This document shows, piece after piece, positions 1,446 through 31,663 of a DNA stretch of 31,663 nt. Position numbers and translations under genes: made by a program. Each line of letters begins with the position of its first letter. Position 1 is the first letter of the stretch. This stretch comes from a virus, in the IMG/VR virus record IMGVR_UViG_3300034019_000911, positions 1-31,663 of that record. One strand, 5' to 3'. Under the pieces are notes generated by a model, which saw nothing but the letters and a program-made list of their open reading frames with translations, had not been told where the DNA came from and did no database searches.

Positions 1446-1473
1446 AGTTTGCGGATAGGTGTACGGGTGTCAA
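1446..1473 (-). promoter_or_regulatory. putative promoter of the DNA-binding/metallophosphoesterase pair
   Basis: On the minus strand a perfect -35 (TTGACA, 1468-1473) is followed after 16 nt by a weak -10 (CAAACT, 1446-1451). The first ten spacer bases are CCCGTACACC. The same element GGTTGAC(A/G)CCCGTACACC recurs at 21734-21751 before another small gene group, with one difference in 18 bases. The embedded CGTACA matches half-sites in the early control region. Confidence 0.5.
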
Positions 1474-1802
1474 CCGCTGTTTTTTTCGGCTTCAACCGGC
1501 CCCCACTTGCCCACTGGGCACGACTGATCCGCCCAGTGCAGCTTGGATATGTAGGCCCGTTCGCGGCTGATGCCGCAGCCGCATTTAGTGCAGACGTTGG
1601 CAGCGAAATACTCGCACGCCGTGCAGATGGCGTGCCGATCGGCCACTTGCTCGTCGGTGCAGCGGGGAGCACCGGCGGCGACGTGCGACACCGCGGCCTT
1701 AGCGAAGTTGCCCATCCGCTCGAGCAGCGGGGGGGGCTCGCTGCTAGCACGCGCGGCCCGGCGGGCATTGACCTCAGACGCTGCAAGGAGCCTGGATTTC
1801 AA
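1470..1802 (-). CDS. zinc-ribbon-like protein with paired Cys motifs
   Basis: The C-terminal half carries a metal-binding pattern: C-T-A-C, then C-T-K-C-G-C, then SCPVGKW. This C-x2-C...C-x2-C-x-C...C-P spacing fits a small zinc ribbon often seen in phage late operons next to tail or adhesin genes. The start is uncertain. No ATG lies in a good position; a TTG at 1802, overlapping the upstream gene by 29 nt, gives 110 aa and is used here, but an ATG at 1718 (MGNFAKAAV) is possible. The role is unknown; structural or assembly functions are guesses. Confidence 0.65.
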   Translation of the reverse strand: MKSRLLAASEVNARRAARASSEPPPLLERMGNFAKAAVSHVAAGAPRCTDEQVADRHAICTACEYFAANVCTKCGCGISRERAYISKLHWADQSCPVGKWGPVEAEKNSG

Positions 1803-21721: not shown

Positions 21722-21749
21722 ATTCTGCCCACTGGTGTACGGGCGTCAA
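21722..21749 (-). promoter_or_regulatory. putative promoter of the secreted/membrane gene group
   Basis: TTGACG (21744-21749), a 16-nt spacer, and CAGAAT (21722-21727) on the minus strand. The block GGTTGACGCCCGTACACC (21734-21751) repeats the element at 1458-1475. It stands immediately after the terminase stop, so the small secreted genes can be expressed apart from late transcription. Confidence 0.5.
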
Positions 21750-21756
21750 CCTCAGC

Positions 21757-27241: not shown

Positions 27242-27730
27242 CTAAAACGGGAGGTCGTCGCCGCTCGCGCCGGTCGCCGCGTCCGCCTTCTGTGTGGCGG
27301 TGCGATTCGCAGTCCGCTCGACCACGGCCTTCGGCAGCGGATCCGCGTTGGGCTTGTATCTCTCGACCTTGACGTAGTCGCGTCCGGCCTTGCTCACCGC
27401 GATCACCGTCTCAAAGGTCACTGCATGATCCTTCAACTGCGACTCGTCCCAGTCGCCGCGCGGCGGGTCGATCCTCGCCGATCGGCAAAGGGCCTCGATC
27501 GACCCCCTGCGGTCGCACGGGATCGAGTCGAACACCGACTTGATTTCCTTGGAGAAGTCGAGCCGCACCGTGAGGCACTGGCCCTCCGGGTTGTTCTTGC
27601 CCTTGGCCCAGTCCTTCGGCTGGATCTTCACCCACCCGATAGTCGCGACGTGCGTTCCCTCCGGGCAGAGCTGCTCGGCTCCGGCGTCCGACTGCGTCTC
27701 GCTCGTATCTGCAAAATCGTCCCAGTTCAC
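27242..27730 (-). CDS. SSB-like/DUF669-type protein with DDLPF tip
   Basis: A 162-residue protein, GTGA-coupled to the gene before. The body (EGTHVATIGWVKIQPKDWAKG, GQCLTVRLDFSKEIKSVFDSI, DHAVTFETVIAVSKAGRDYVKVERY) has the beta-rich pattern of DUF669/SSB-like phage proteins. The last residues ASGDDLPF copy the acidic tip of bacterial SSB (usually DDxxPF), which binds repair and replication partners. It likely coats single-stranded DNA during replication and recombination with the AAA ATPase encoded upstream. It is not a canonical SSB OB-fold by motif, so the ssDNA-binding role is inferred. Confidence 0.75.
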   Translation of the reverse strand: MNWDDFADTSETQSDAGAEQLCPEGTHVATIGWVKIQPKDWAKGKNNPEGQCLTVRLDFSKEIKSVFDSIPCDRRGSIEALCRSARIDPPRGDWDESQLKDHAVTFETVIAVSKAGRDYVKVERYKPNADPLPKAVVERTANRTATQKADAATGASGDDLPF

Positions 27731-27924
27731 GTCGTCACCTCGGGGTTGTAGGGCTTGCTACTGATCTTCACGATTCGGTCGGCGTCGCCCACAAGGGCGT
27801 CGTCGATGATGGACTTGGCTCGGTTGAAACTCACCGCACCACGCTTGAACGCGGTCGCGGTGTCCTCCACGATCTGCATGGCCGCCGCATGGCGGGCCTC
27901 CTCGTCACGTTCGACCTGGTTCAT
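27727..27924 (-). CDS. hypothetical protein, 65 aa
   Basis: ATGA-coupled to the ATPase gene and GTGA-coupled to the SSB-like gene. A helical protein (MNQVERDEEARHAAAMQIVEDTATAFKRG, NRAKSIIDDALVGDADRIVKI) with no membrane segment or motif. Its place between two recombination genes suggests it belongs to the same complex, which is inference. Confidence 0.65.
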   Translation of the reverse strand: MNQVERDEEARHAAAMQIVEDTATAFKRGAVSFNRAKSIIDDALVGDADRIVKISSKPYNPEVTT

Positions 27925-28820
27925 GCGGGAACCTCCTCGGGTGACAGAACTCCACGACGCTTTGAGATCGCGTTGCCCAGCGTGTTTCGCTGGCTCTCGG
28001 TCAGGTCGCCGGCCGTCACGGCGTCGTCGGCGTCGCCCTCGATCACGTCCAGCTCCTCAACCGACGCCGCGGCCTTGACGCGGTCGCCCCAGCCGGGCTT
28101 CGACGCCGGAACGCTCGCGAACAGCGGGGCCAACGCCTCGATGGTCATGGGCAGTTCCGGGGCGAGCCCGTAGCGGTTTTTCGCGTCCCAAGCGGCCGTC
28201 CGCTCGGTGTGCAGCACCCGCTCCTTGCCGCCCCGTGCCCTGGTGCGGCCATCCTCGCCCGCGACAAGTCGGGTCTTGTAGTTCGCGAACAGAATGCAGT
28301 CGGCCCACTCCTTGACGAGCGGCCCGCTCTGCTTGGTCAGCTTTAACTCAAACCGGTCGTAGCCCTCGTCCATGTCCGGCGGGCTGCACCGCTTGACGGT
28401 GGTGTGGCACACGATGACCACGTTGATGCCACGCTCCACGAGCGAGTCGCAGACCGTGAGGAAGCGACCGATGGCCTCCGCGACCATCGTGTACCCCTTT
28501 CCGAATCCGAAGTCTTCGATGCTCCGCTTCTGAGCCTTAGAAAGAAGGTTCTCGATGAGAAGCCGCTCCAGCCAGTCGCCGGAGTCGATCACGACCGTCT
28601 GGTATCCCTGCGAGTCGCGAGCCAGCTCGTGCAGGGTTCCCTCGGCCTCGAGGTAGTTCGTGATCGTCACCCGATCCACGTCGAGGTGGTTCGTGCCGTC
28701 CTCGGTGTCGAGCACAAGTGGTTTCGGGAACTGGCTGGCAAGTGTGCTTTTGCCGATTCCCTCAACACCGTGCAGCACCACCCGCTTTGCAGTCTGCCGC
28801 TTTCCCTTCGTGATCTTCAT
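27921..28820 (-). CDS. Sak4/AAA_24-type P-loop ATPase (recombination)
   Basis: A 299-residue protein starting at ATG 28820 (AGAGGG upstream; ATGA overlap). Walker A GVEGIGKST at 18-26, Walker B TVVIDS at 75-80, then a helical core and VVIVCHTTVKR. The order FPKPLVLDTEDGTNHLDVDR after the P-loop is typical of phage AAA_24/Sak4 proteins, RecA-core ATPases that promote single-strand annealing with SSB. The SSB-like gene two positions downstream supports such a pair. A replicative helicase-loader role is the alternative. C-terminal 60 residues are acidic and variable. Confidence 0.8.
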   Translation of the reverse strand: MKITKGKRQTAKRVVLHGVEGIGKSTLASQFPKPLVLDTEDGTNHLDVDRVTITNYLEAEGTLHELARDSQGYQTVVIDSGDWLERLLIENLLSKAQKRSIEDFGFGKGYTMVAEAIGRFLTVCDSLVERGINVVIVCHTTVKRCSPPDMDEGYDRFELKLTKQSGPLVKEWADCILFANYKTRLVAGEDGRTRARGGKERVLHTERTAAWDAKNRYGLAPELPMTIEALAPLFASVPASKPGWGDRVKAAASVEELDVIEGDADDAVTAGDLTESQRNTLGNAISKRRGVLSPEEVPA

Positions 28821-29044
28821 ACTTTTATTCCCTCTTTTCGTGCCCACTCCTCCAACGCCCTCACGGCCGTGCGGACCATCCGCACGTCACCGTCAAAACT
28901 CCTGCTATAGCCCTCGACCGCACTGACACTCGTGAGCATCAATCGTGCGGCCCGGAGCAACTTCAACGCCCGGCAAATGCCCAGCGAGTGGCGGCCGTCC
29001 GCCGCTTTCACGCTGGCTCTCTTCGGATCGATTCCACTTGTCAT
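28817..29044 (-). CDS. hypothetical basic protein, 75 aa
   Basis: ATG 29044 has GGAGG 6 nt upstream and lies inside the csrA-like frame, overlapping it by 140 nt. The protein is helical and basic (ALKLLRAARLMLTSVSAVEG, DVRMVRTAVRALEEWARKEG) with a compact two-helix look. The stop overlaps the ATPase start by ATGA. No function is known; the strong ribosome site argues it is expressed. Confidence 0.65.
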   Translation of the reverse strand: MTSGIDPKRASVKAADGRHSLGICRALKLLRAARLMLTSVSAVEGYSRSFDGDVRMVRTAVRALEEWARKEGIKV

Positions 29045-29210
29045 TGATGACCTCCAGTTCGCTTCGTCTGATTGAGATGTGGGCTGGTGCTTCGATGCCC
29101 AGCTTGACCATTGGCCGACCGCCGCCCGCTCCGCGGATCTCCCGCACCACCACGACTACGTCCGGACCGATCTGGATTCGGTCTCCGAGGTAGCGATTAA
29201 GATTCAGCAC
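28905..29210 (-). CDS. CsrA-like RNA-binding regulator
   Basis: From GTG 29210 (CGGAG 5 nt upstream) the frame encodes M-L-N-L-N-R-Y-L-G-D-R-I-Q-I-G-P-D followed by VVVVREIRG and VKLGIEAPAHISIRRSEL. This is the CsrA strand order. L4, R6 and the late Arg (R49 in IRRSEL, matching E. coli R44) are the RNA-contacting positions. About five extra residues (AGGGRPM region) extend the loop before strand 4. CsrA dimers bind GGA motifs, often over ribosome sites, to block or stabilise mRNAs. The C-terminus runs about 45 residues past the domain, overlapping the next gene. It probably retunes host or phage translation. Confidence 0.85.
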   Translation of the reverse strand: MLNLNRYLGDRIQIGPDVVVVVREIRGAGGGRPMVKLGIEAPAHISIRRSELEVINDKWNRSEESQRESGGRPPLAGHLPGVEVAPGRTIDAHECQCGRGL

Positions 29211-29595
29211 GACGGCTCCGTTTCGTTGCCGCTTTGCCAGCCTTGGCTCGGCGGGGTGGTTCCTGTTCACGCCGCGGTCCCCGCGGCTCCGTTCCGGCGT
29301 GATCCGTCACGCCGGCATCCTGGTTGCTGGTGGCCGCGGTGATTGCACCGCCGTGCCACGGTTTTCCCGTGCGGTTCTGCCTCATCCGCACCTCGGAGAG
29401 TCGCCGCAGAGCCTCCGGCTCGCCGCAGAGAAGGTCGGCCATCCGGTCGGCGATCGTCTCCAGGTCGGCGATCGCCTCGCGCGTCGAGTCGTAGATGACC
29501 TCGAGATCCCCGGCGATCAGTCGCTGCTCGATGTCCATGTCGATCGTCTCGTTCAGCGGCAGTCGCCGAGTGCAGACGATCATGGCGGTCGCCAT
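29197..29595 (-). CDS. hypothetical protein with basic tail, 132 aa
   Basis: Chosen start ATG 29595 (MATAMIVCTRRLPLNET), 29 nt after the upstream stop; ATG 29583 is possible. Residues 18-75 are acidic helices (IEQRLIAGDLEVIYDSTREA, LETIADRMADLLCGEPEALR) that may form a coiled coil. The C-terminal 45 residues are very basic (PRREQEPPRRAKAGKAATKR) and could bind nucleic acid. The stop overlaps the csrA-like start by 14 nt. The first 96 codons of the longer open frame are a shadow of the preceding gene, judged by A-rich third positions. Confidence 0.55.
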   Translation of the reverse strand: MATAMIVCTRRLPLNETIDMDIEQRLIAGDLEVIYDSTREAIADLETIADRMADLLCGEPEALRRLSEVRMRQNRTGKPWHGGAITAATSNQDAGVTDHAGTEPRGPRREQEPPRRAKAGKAATKRSRRAES

Positions 29596-29624
29596 GCGGA
29601 CCCGTAGGGTGCGGACGACCTCGC

Positions 29625-29831
29625 CTACGTCCCCCGCGGCTTCCCGAAGAGCATCCGCACGCTGACCGGGTCCGCGTCCGGCGGCTGGTATTCGCACCGG
29701 GTCACCCGACGCTTGTATTCCTCGTCCGGCGACCAACTCATCCGAATCGCGGCCGCGAGCAACTGAATCGTCGGCTCGGTGGGGTCGGCCTGATCGCTCT
29801 CTCGATCCTGGTATCGCTGCTGGTTGTCCAT
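29625..29831 (-). CDS. hypothetical acidic protein, 68 aa
   Basis: Starts at ATG 29831 with GAGAGGAAG just upstream. Third codon positions are overwhelmingly G/C, so the frame is real although a longer frame overlaps it. The protein has a polar N-terminus, one helix (TIQLLAAAIRMSWSPDEEYKR) and a C-terminal PDADPVSVRMLFGKPRGT. First gene of the leftward early operon, expected to be made early. No known domain. Confidence 0.65.
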   Translation of the reverse strand: MDNQQRYQDRESDQADPTEPTIQLLAAAIRMSWSPDEEYKRRVTRCEYQPPDADPVSVRMLFGKPRGT

Positions 29832-29907
29832 TGCGGCTTCCTCTCGTTTTGAGGGTCGCCGATGCTGCGGTCTTGCGTTTCATGGCGCGTCCCTCGCCTG
29901 TCGTTCC

Positions 29908-29928
29908 TGCCGATCACCGTGATCGGCA
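29908..29928. promoter_or_regulatory. perfect 10-bp palindrome, operator or leader hairpin
   Basis: TGCCGATCAC is followed by one C and then its exact reverse complement. It lies about 14-34 nt downstream of the expected start of the promoter at 29949-29976, between that promoter and the first early gene. Either a repressor dimer binds it as a roadblock, or the RNA folds into a hairpin in the leader. Confidence 0.65.
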
Positions 29929-29948
29929 CCTAGTTCTCGTGGGTGGGC

Positions 29949-29976
29949 CCACTGTACTGTTGTTCAGATGCCGGTC
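29949..29976 (-). promoter_or_regulatory. putative leftward early promoter, proximal
   Basis: TTGACC (29971-29976), 16-nt spacer, TACAGT (29949-29954) on the minus strand. It is the closest promoter to the early operon. The same -35 and spacer length occur in the distal promoter at 30127-30154. Confidence 0.55.
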
Positions 29977-30059
29977 AAACGATTTTCTTGGTCGTGTAGG
30001 TCGGGGATTCGTTGCAGTTGGGGAGTTGAAATCCTTCCGGCGTCATGTCAGTGCGTTGT

Positions 30060-30074
30060 CGTACAGACATGGTC
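30060..30074. promoter_or_regulatory. operator-like half-site repeat
   Basis: CGTACAGACATGGTC repeats CGTACAGAC-TGGTC of 30139-30152 with one inserted A. It lies 53-67 nt downstream of the distal promoter -10, where a bound protein could block elongation or loop to the primary site. Confidence 0.45.
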
Positions 30075-30126
30075 CGAAGAATGCCGACGTTGAACTGCGT
30101 GGTGCTGTTCGTCGTCGGCGGGGGGA

Positions 30127-30154
30127 AGTGTACGGTAGCGTACAGACTGGTCAA
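30127..30154 (-). promoter_or_regulatory. putative leftward early promoter overlapping an inverted repeat
   Basis: TTGACC (30149-30154), 16-nt spacer, TACACT (30127-30132). The inverted repeat TGTACG-GTAG-CGTACA (30129-30144) covers most of the -10 and the adjacent spacer, the classic arrangement of a repressor operator over a promoter. Confidence 0.6.
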
Positions 30155-30193
30155 GGTCAGTTTGGGTTTTTTCTGACGACCGGATGAATCACG

Positions 30194-30436
30194 CTACTTT
30201 TTGCGTGATCGAGGCCCTCGCGGGCCGCCGCCGAGGGCGGGATCTAGGCTGGCGTCGTAGGTGCGGATGAACTTTGCGACTTCTTCCTCGTCGAACACCC
30301 ACGCTCGAGCACCGAGCTTTCGCCCTTTCAGCACTCCGTCGATCGCGAAACGCCGCACGCTGGCGTCGGCCAGGCCCATACGCTTCGCCACGTCGGCGGT
30401 TGAGAGGACTTTGAGATGAGAGTTTGCCATGACCAT
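30194..30436 (-). CDS. excisionase-type helix-turn-helix protein
   Basis: An 80-residue protein with AGGA just before ATG 30436. It has the MerR/excisionase-family winged HTH order: LSTADVAKRMGLADASVRRFAIDGVLKGRKLGARAWVFDEEEVAKFI, in which SVRRF is the recognition helix and GARAWVF the wing. It likely bends attachment-site DNA to steer the integrase towards excision, as it lies beside the att region. As the only regulator next to the operators it may also repress its own and the early promoters. The C-terminus is Gly/Arg-rich. Confidence 0.8.
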   Translation of the reverse strand: MVMANSHLKVLSTADVAKRMGLADASVRRFAIDGVLKGRKLGARAWVFDEEEVAKFIRTYDASLDPALGGGPRGPRSRKK

Positions 30437-30443
30437 GTTTCCT

Positions 30444-30471
30444 ATCGTACATACCCCGTCGCGACAGTCAA
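30444..30471 (-). promoter_or_regulatory. putative promoter of the excisionase-type gene
   Basis: TTGACT (30466-30471), 16-nt spacer, TACGAT (30444-30449). The ATG begins only 7 nt after the -10, so an mRNA from here would be nearly leaderless. CGTACA at 30446-30451 overlaps the -10, the same hexamer that overlaps the distal early promoter. Confidence 0.45.
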
Positions 30472-30480
30472 AAACGTCAA

Positions 30481-30538
30481 AACTTGAATCTCGCCCGCCA
30501 CTCCTCTAGAGTCGAAGTGGCCGGGCGAGAGTTGAAGT
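30481..30538. repeat. imperfect inverted and direct repeats flanking the att core
   Basis: Arms at 30481-30502 and 30516-30538 pair through TCTCGCCCG-CCACT against AGTGGCCGGGCGAGA with few gaps. The right arm sequence AGTCGAAGTGGCCGGGCGAG (30510-30529) is then directly repeated as AGTTGAAGTGG-AGGCGAG (30530-30547), running into the att core. Such arrays beside a core fit integrase or excisionase arm-binding sites. Confidence 0.5.
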
Positions 30539-30563
30539 GGAGGCGAGGGGAGTCGAACCCCTG
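30538..30563 (-). other. putative attP core: 3' end of a tmRNA or tRNA-Ala gene
   Basis: On the minus strand the sequence forms a T-arm (AGGGG-TTCGACT-CCCCT, 30546-30562), a 7-nt acceptor half (CGCCTCC, 30539-30545) and discriminator A. U at position 70 with A73 fits a G3-U70 pair, the alanine identity shared by tRNA-Ala and tmRNA; TTCGACT is common in tmRNA T-loops. Upstream sequence does not complete a tRNA, so this is a 3' fragment, as phages carry in attP when they integrate into such genes. Confidence 0.7.
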
Positions 30564-30631
30564 AAAGGGGTGATGTACTAGCGTCCAGTTATGAGGCAGA
30601 CTGCCCGGCATCAACAACAGGGAGATGCCAG

Positions 30632-31567
30632 ATGCGAGGGATGCCAGTCAGGGAGTTAACGACGAGATACGCGAGGGTGCGGGAGCTGAAGCCGAAGACT
30701 TTGGCTCTCTACGAGATGATGTGGGCCAGGTTCGAGCGTTTCCTTGAGCGGCCGGCGACGGTCGGTGATCTGAACGTCGACACGGTCTCCGAGTACATCG
30801 AGTGGAGGAAGGCCACGCCGGGGTGGCGGGGCCGATTGCCGAAGCCGGCCACGGTGCGGCGCGATCGAAATATGATCCGGGCGACGTGGGAGTACGCCGC
30901 TCGGCGAAAGTTTGCCGACGAGTTCCCCGAGGTGCCTCGCGTGCGGGTGCCGGAGTCGATCCCGACCGGTCGGGCCTACACCGCCGAAGAGGCGTCGGCC
31001 TTGATCCGCCAGGCGAAGCACCGGATCGGCAAGGTTGGCGGATTGCCTGCTCGCTGGTGGTGGCCGACGCTGCTCTACGCTGCGGTATGCACTGGTGAAC
31101 GGTTTGAAGCGTTGACGAGCATCAAGTGGGCGCAGGTTGACCTCGAGCGGCACACGATGCTGTTCTTGGCGGACACTCGGAAGGGGAGCACGAGAGACAT
31201 CGTGCGGTCGATCACGCCGCGGCTGGCGACGATGCTTGCCGAGCACCGGCGCGACGATGCTTGCCTCGTCTGGCCTTGGGATCGGAAGGGCCGGTCACAG
31301 TGGGCATCGCTCCAGGTTCTGTGCCGGACCGCCGGCGTGGAGTATCGAGGGCGAGGCTTCCACGGCTTTCGCCGGATGGCGGCGAGTTATCTGGCGGCCA
31401 AGTTTGGCAGGGGGGCGGCGACCGAGCTGCTCGATCACTACGACCCCAGACTTCAGAGGGTATATGTCGATCCGCTGATCTGCCCGTCGACGTTCAACTC
31501 GCTGGCGGGGTTGCCGGAGCTGGACATCGACGATTCTGAGCCCCCTGAGAGCGTTTCTCCGGGGTGA
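30632..31567 (+). CDS. tyrosine recombinase (phage integrase)
   Basis: A 311-residue integrase and the only plus-strand gene. An N-terminal SAM-like core-binding domain (about 15-95, YARVRELKPKTLALYEMMWA, LNVDTVSEYIEW) is followed by the catalytic domain with R157 (CTGERFEAL), K184 (DTRKGST), H244-x-x-R247 (FHGFRR), H269 (LLDHYD) and nucleophile Y278 (QRVYVD). All key residues are present. GGGAG lies 7 nt before ATG 30632. It catalyses site-specific integration and excision at the att core just upstream. No long arm-binding domain is evident at the N-terminus, so it may be a simpler type than lambda Int. Confidence 0.95.
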   Translation: MRGMPVRELTTRYARVRELKPKTLALYEMMWARFERFLERPATVGDLNVDTVSEYIEWRKATPGWRGRLPKPATVRRDRNMIRATWEYAARRKFADEFPEVPRVRVPESIPTGRAYTAEEASALIRQAKHRIGKVGGLPARWWWPTLLYAAVCTGERFEALTSIKWAQVDLERHTMLFLADTRKGSTRDIVRSITPRLATMLAEHRRDDACLVWPWDRKGRSQWASLQVLCRTAGVEYRGRGFHGFRRMAASYLAAKFGRGAATELLDHYDPRLQRVYVDPLICPSTFNSLAGLPELDIDDSEPPESVSPG

Positions 31568-31587
31568 TCGCCGCTAGGGGGTGGCGT

Positions 31588-31616
31588 CGGCCGCCGCGAT
31601 CAGCGGCGGCCGTTTT
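31588..31616 (+). terminator. intrinsic terminator of the integrase gene
   Basis: A perfect 10-bp stem (CGGCCGCCGC / GCGGCGGCCG) with loop GATCA spans 31588-31612 and is followed by TTTT (31613-31616). It lies 20 nt after the integrase stop, so it ends the plus-strand transcript before it can oppose the late operon. Confidence 0.8.
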
Positions 31617-31663
31617 GGGGCTTCTGGCGACGTTTGGGCGCGGACTCGATGATAGGGTGTCGT

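Follow-up and report, generated by a model that had tools for sequence, protein, structure and literature searches.

Setting of the locus

The window, a 31.7-kb linear virus record analysed over its full 31,663 nt, carries the gene set of a tailed phage, with portal, capsid, terminase, Sak4-like annealing protein, CsrA-like protein and tyrosine integrase identified in Pfam and PHROGs scans. The integrase (30632–31567, plus strand; PHROG 1 integrase, E 5.8e-25) provided the anchor for finding relatives, and the CGTACA-bearing locus described here sits between this plus-strand gene and the minus-strand early genes. At 30538–30557 (plus strand) lies the tRNA 3′-end sequence TGGAGGCGAGGGGAGTCGAA, which is kept beside the integrase in relatives and is probably the attP core, an assignment made from its resemblance to a tRNA 3′ end; no tRNA gene was found in the window. 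No match to the integrase was found in cultured phages, and one match in genome contigs fell on a 3.4-kb MAG contig labelled Proteobacteria. The CsrA-family protein is encoded in the early region (28905–29270, minus strand; Pfam E 2e-10).

Within the locus, positions 30194–30436 (minus strand) encode an 80-aa excisionase-like regulator, which matches Pfam HTH_17 (PF12728; E 9.8e-7, 29.4 bits) above the gathering cut-off of 27. Among eight other types of this protein found in relatives, one exceeded the same cut-off, five fell below it and two were without a match. It also matched PHROG 66, ‘excisionase and transcriptional regulator’ (E 3e-5), and did not reach the cut-off of the NCBIfam excisionase model TIGR01764 (21.4 bits vs 28.8). 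An AF2 model is a winged helix-turn-helix (mean pLDDT 73.6, ~81–86 in residues 11–60), with weak structural matches, none better than E 0.009, to RacA, BldC, MerR-type domains, Pukovnik Xis and RdfS; the best sequence match among solved structures was Pukovnik Xis (E 1.5e-4). Pfam and PHROGs scans of the main ORFs in the window returned no LexA/CI-type protein, and Pfam scans of these ORFs, and of the end regions that a 41.7-kb relative has in addition, returned no other HTH regulator. The HTH_17 protein is most likely the regulator that reads the cassette sites described below.

Promoters and predicted operators

Three minus-strand promoters of TTGAC type with 16-nt spacers had been predicted, and all three were found in place (0.6 expected in shuffles). 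P1 (TTGACT-N16-TACGAT, 30444–30471) stands 7 nt ahead of the ATG of the HTH gene; P2 (TTGACC-N16-TACACT, 30127–30154) reads towards the early operon and has TACAAT as its −10 in several relatives; P3 (TTGACC-N16-TACAGT) lies at 29951–29978. Across types, P2 is found ~30–60 nt behind the HTH gene and directed at the early genes, a position that would suit an early lytic promoter. Just ahead of the first early genes is a near-perfect palindrome, TGCCGATCAC-C-GTGATCGGCA (29908–29928), which is kept in most relatives and in some has changes on both arms (L003/L004 read GCCGGCCATGGTGGCCGG), a pattern that points to an RNA hairpin.

Of 43 distinct upstream regions, 34 place the start of the HTH gene 6 or 7 nt after the P1 −10 (shuffles would give 0.1%), such that the architecture TTG-N16-TANNNT-N6/7-ATG recurs in 34/43 distinct relatives. 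This count was made on HTH genes found without the promoter pattern, the set found by pattern being biased towards a leaderless P1. With this spacing, the transcript would start at or beside the AUG, and the P1 mRNA is probably leaderless.

As predicted, TGTACG/CGTACA overlaps the −10 elements at 30127–30132 and 30444–30449, and the inverted repeat at 30129–30144 is indeed perfect (TGTACGGTAGCGTACA). We propose three operators, all on the minus strand. O1 (TGTACG-ATAG-GAAACA, 30436–30451; 14/16 columns invariant) has one strong and one weak half-site and covers the P1 −10 and start, further downstream than the corresponding sites of other types. O2 (30129–30144; 15/16 invariant) is the perfect dyad TGTACG-N4-CGTACA and fills the P2 spacer plus the first bases of the −10. 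O3 (TGTACG-N4-CGCACW, 30050–30065; 14/16 invariant) looks like a degenerate duplicate of the P2 operator region. The 14-base direct repeat claimed for 30060–30074 matches exactly over nine bases (CGTACAGAC), after which a one-base indel precedes TGGTC. In the HTH type of the window, 43 of 48 operator columns are invariant vs 61 of 115 other non-coding columns (P = 5e-6). Inverted symmetry is strongest with an N4 spacer at both P1 and P2 (z 6.2 and 7.3).

Spacers of 16–17 nt are normal for sigma-70, and a dyad placed between −35 and −10 would suit occlusion of the promoter. The same location, together with the likeness of the fold to MerR-type DNA-binding domains (SoxR, HiNmlR, BldC), could also be read as MerR-type activation, in which an HTH dimer bound in the spacer remodels the promoter and switches it on. 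We consider this highly improbable: MerR promoters have over-long spacers of 19–20 bp, whereas those here are 16–17 nt between near-consensus hexamers that need no remodelling, the dyad extends into the −10, and the HTH protein carries no MerR effector domain.

Counts of CGTACA in a single genome

Counting by eye had given about six non-coding and five coding copies of CGTACA, and exact positions return the same numbers, with the non-coding copies (CGTACA or TGTACG, by our own assignment) at 30060, 30129, 30139, 30446, 1460 and 21736. Against a background model, however, the expected enrichment did not materialise genome-wide, with 11 copies vs 7.7 expected and 19 of 100 shuffles reaching 11. 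Within 505 nt of local non-coding DNA the word is enriched if named beforehand (mean 0.23; 0/3000 shuffles reach four copies), but this count is post hoc, since some hexamer reaches four copies in 44% of shuffles of the same DNA. Hexamer enrichment in one genome is therefore unconvincing as sole proof, and it is comparison with relatives, rather than the raw count, that supplies the evidence for the putative operators.

Exchange of the cassette among relatives

Relatives were collected through the HTH protein, the integrase, two DNA patterns and an integrase alignment, giving ~135 loci, many of which overlap the same contigs. Aligned by blastn with a 41.7-kb relative of another HTH type, the window is 89.5% identical at 27727–30033 and 92.1% identical at 30508–31620, with nothing aligned between, delimiting an exchangeable cassette (30034–30507, minus strand) that holds P1, the HTH gene, P2 and the third site. 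In the seven loci of the same HTH type first found (protein 74–96% identical), the sites are kept in all seven, as TGTACGATAGG ahead of the gene, CTGTACGNTANCGTACA behind it and TGTACGACANCGCAC further on. In loci of other HTH types with integrases up to 97% identical to that of the window, the flanks are kept and the middle differs. Between attP and P1, an inverted repeat (CTCTCGCCCGGCCACTTC / GAGTGGCGGGCGAGA, 30485–30535) is replaced by a different hairpin in other cassette types, and is possibly a terminator insulating the cassette.

Among 178 pairs of loci with integrases at least 90% identical, the HTH proteins were <50% identical in 104 and ≥90% identical in 63, a bimodal distribution in which the counts are not independent, as pairs share loci and some loci are closely related. 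Of the 74 related integrase loci whose flank was long enough, 73 had an HTH-like gene in this place, a few of the matches being weak. Regulator gene and apparently cognate sites are replaced together between related phages, as in a phage immunity cassette.

Type-specific words shared by P1 and P2

The words within the cassette follow the type of the HTH protein. The non-coding part of the cassette, ~215 nt, contains exactly four CGTACA/TGTACG in 8/8 cassettes of the type found in the window, and none in 31 of 32 cassettes of other types. Other types carry words of their own in both P1 and P2, namely CTACCG/TTACCG, CTAACG/CTAGCG, GATACG, GTTGCN, GTAACG, GCAAAG and AACTNCCG. The site takes the form of a 6-N4-6 inverted repeat over the promoter in the clearest types, while several types, those with AACTNCCG words, show no clean dyads of this form.

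Matching of P1 to P2 was scored across nine broad types, grouped at 60% HTH identity from genes found without assuming a promoter. The 8-mer score for a P1 with its own P2 was 6.92, vs 6.01 (sd 0.18) across types, a difference reached in none of 20,000 permutations, and the own P2 ranked first for P1 in 7/9 types. Division into 14 types gave 18.71 vs 17.47 (sd 0.26), again with 0/20,000 permutations. Type L126 fails the match test, its P2 being perhaps misplaced. When P1 was compared by 12-mers, without anchoring, with the full 170 nt behind the HTH gene, the signal was noisy (P = 0.001), and promoter anchoring was used instead. Sharing of words between P1 and P2 is informative because contiguous DNA that merely moved together would not give two promoters flanking a gene the same word.

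These comparisons also bear on another explanation of the hexamer, that GTACA reflects a −10 preference of these phage promoters (TACANT after G) with no regulator involved. P1, P2 and P3 do all have a G-TAC −10, P3 is not type-specific, and the shuffles described above show how readily some hexamer reaches four copies by chance. Promoters at the same place in other types, however, use CTACCG, GTTGC, CTAACG or GCAAAG, matched between P1 and P2 within each type, and the half-site at 30139–30144 and O3 lie outside any −10 and yet are conserved, leaving this explanation scarcely credible.

Sites outside the cassette

The original prediction of one regulator with many sites is well supported inside the cassette, at P1, P2 and the third site, where the 8/8 vs 31/32 split applies. 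It is not supported genome-wide: P3, a GTACAT beside attP and two distant promoters all persist in phages with other HTH types, which speaks against a single CGTACA regulon across the genome. P3 lies outside the cassette and accompanies all cassette types of this backbone. It has a dyad of its own over the −10 (TGAAC-N4-GTACA, 29953–29966, minus strand), kept in eight of nine distinct sequences whatever the cassette type. This dyad is a candidate for a second operator, independent of the cassette and perhaps read by a regulator of the host or the backbone, LexA for example; a literature search found no host LexA motif usable for testing P3. The GTACAT beside attP is likewise independent of type. 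The two distant non-coding copies of CGTACA belong to GTTGACRCCCGTACACC, and lie in the promoter-like elements GTTGACGCCCGTACACC (21734–21750, minus strand) and GTTGACACCCGTACACC (1458–1474, minus strand), outside the cassette regulon. The pair is kept in relatives, two of which, 41.7 kb long and with a different HTH type, each have two copies of GTTGACRCCCGTACACC, and both copies in the window are likely promoters of later operons.

A proposed repressor exchanged with its operators

We propose, with a probability of roughly two in three, that the HTH_17 protein is an autoregulated repressor of P1 and P2 that is swapped together with its operators as an immunity-like block. The CGTACA words would be half-sites of an operator TGTACG-N4-CGTACA, and the inverted repeats predict that the 80-aa protein binds as a twofold-symmetric dimer. 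Bound over the P1 −10 it would regulate its own synthesis, from a leaderless mRNA whose 5′ end coincides with or adjoins the AUG; bound over the spacer and −10 of P2 it would repress the early promoter, with O3 helping or acting as a roadblock. As the cassette lying between attP/integrase and the early operon would carry gene and cognate operators together, a swap would change regulator specificity in one step, as with the lambdoid immunity region, and a swapped phage could escape the repressor of lysogens carrying another type.

The main weakness of this proposal is P3. As P3 is not type-specific and also points at the early operon, repression of P2 alone would not silence these genes, and P3 could express them regardless of the HTH protein unless controlled otherwise. 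Further observations weigh against the proposal: the P1 site in the type of the window has a single clear half-site in a shifted position, several types lack clean 6-N4-6 dyads, type L126 fails the match test, and the proteins nearest in sequence and structure (Pukovnik Xis, BldC, RdfS) act as excisionases or bind direct repeats.

The main rival is a dual excisionase and transcription regulator of the Cox/Apl kind, which would bend DNA near attP for excision and also repress or tune promoters; the sites would then serve primarily recombination directionality and autoregulation, and immunity would be set elsewhere. Excisionases are indeed closest by profile, the HTH gene adjoins the integrase and attP, and Apl of phage 186 does both jobs (PMC7498355), as does XisF4 (PMC7379572). 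Nevertheless, the sites here are inverted repeats with an N4 spacer, rather than the direct repeats about one helical turn apart typical of recombination directionality factors. From the cassette edge to the integrase, a stretch that remains 92% identical while the HTH protein changes completely, no site specific to a type was seen; near-identical integrases are paired with HTH proteins <40% identical; and P2, which has the best site, is ~400 bp from the attP core. We therefore judge a dual excisionase unlikely, and favour the exchanged repressor.

Relation to known phage switches

In the lambdoid immunity regions (imm-lambda, imm434, imm21), lambda cI has a leaderless repressor mRNA. The cassette resembles these regions in that repressor gene and operators would be swapped as one block, with operators overlapping promoters. 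It differs in that an 80-aa HTH_17 protein takes the place of the CI/Cro pair, with no protease-sensitive domain and no second (Cro-like) gene seen in the cassette, and in that regulator and early promoter read the same way. Cluster A mycobacteriophages also include related phages with different repressors, distinct cognate motifs and graded specificity, but in those phages 13-bp stoperators are scattered genome-wide and motifs diverge in step with the genomes (PMC6550527), whereas here three sites are confined to a cassette that is exchanged as a block. Like Apl of phage 186 and P2 Cox, which repress phage promoters, the HTH_17 protein is a small winged-helix protein near the integrase; Apl sites, however, are direct repeats about one turn apart at att and promoters (PMC7498355), in contrast to inverted repeats at promoters, with no type-specific copy seen close to attP. 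The HTH_17 protein resembles Pukovnik Xis (4j2n), BldC (6amk) and RdfS (8dgl; PMC11963761) in fold and, weakly, in sequence, but these bind direct repeats or form filaments, head-to-tail in BldC and RdfS, whereas a twofold-symmetric dimer is predicted here.

More tentatively, and at slightly below even odds, these loci may represent a large undescribed family of single-protein phage switches, with excisionase-fold immunity repressors of ~75–105 aa in at least nine specificity types, expressed from leaderless mRNAs and exchanged, along with their matching inverted-repeat operators, into uncultured phages that are otherwise near-identical. Such a family would be a natural library linking HTH_17 recognition residues to operator sequence; the matched pairs could allow recognition specificity to be deciphered and offer small orthogonal repressors to try. 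Most of what is known of phage immunity groups comes from lambdoid phages and mycobacteriophages in culture, whereas exchange of a full regulator–operator block can here be read directly from metagenomic relatives, for a much smaller regulator of a sort usually filed as an excisionase. If the repressor proposal is right, many ‘excisionase’ annotations beside integrases may conceal an immunity determinant. In three distant relatives (L028, L026, L030), GTGTACA words also stand in pairs next to the start of the integrase, as in GTGTACATATGTGTACA; these are possibly integrase arm sites or an int operator.
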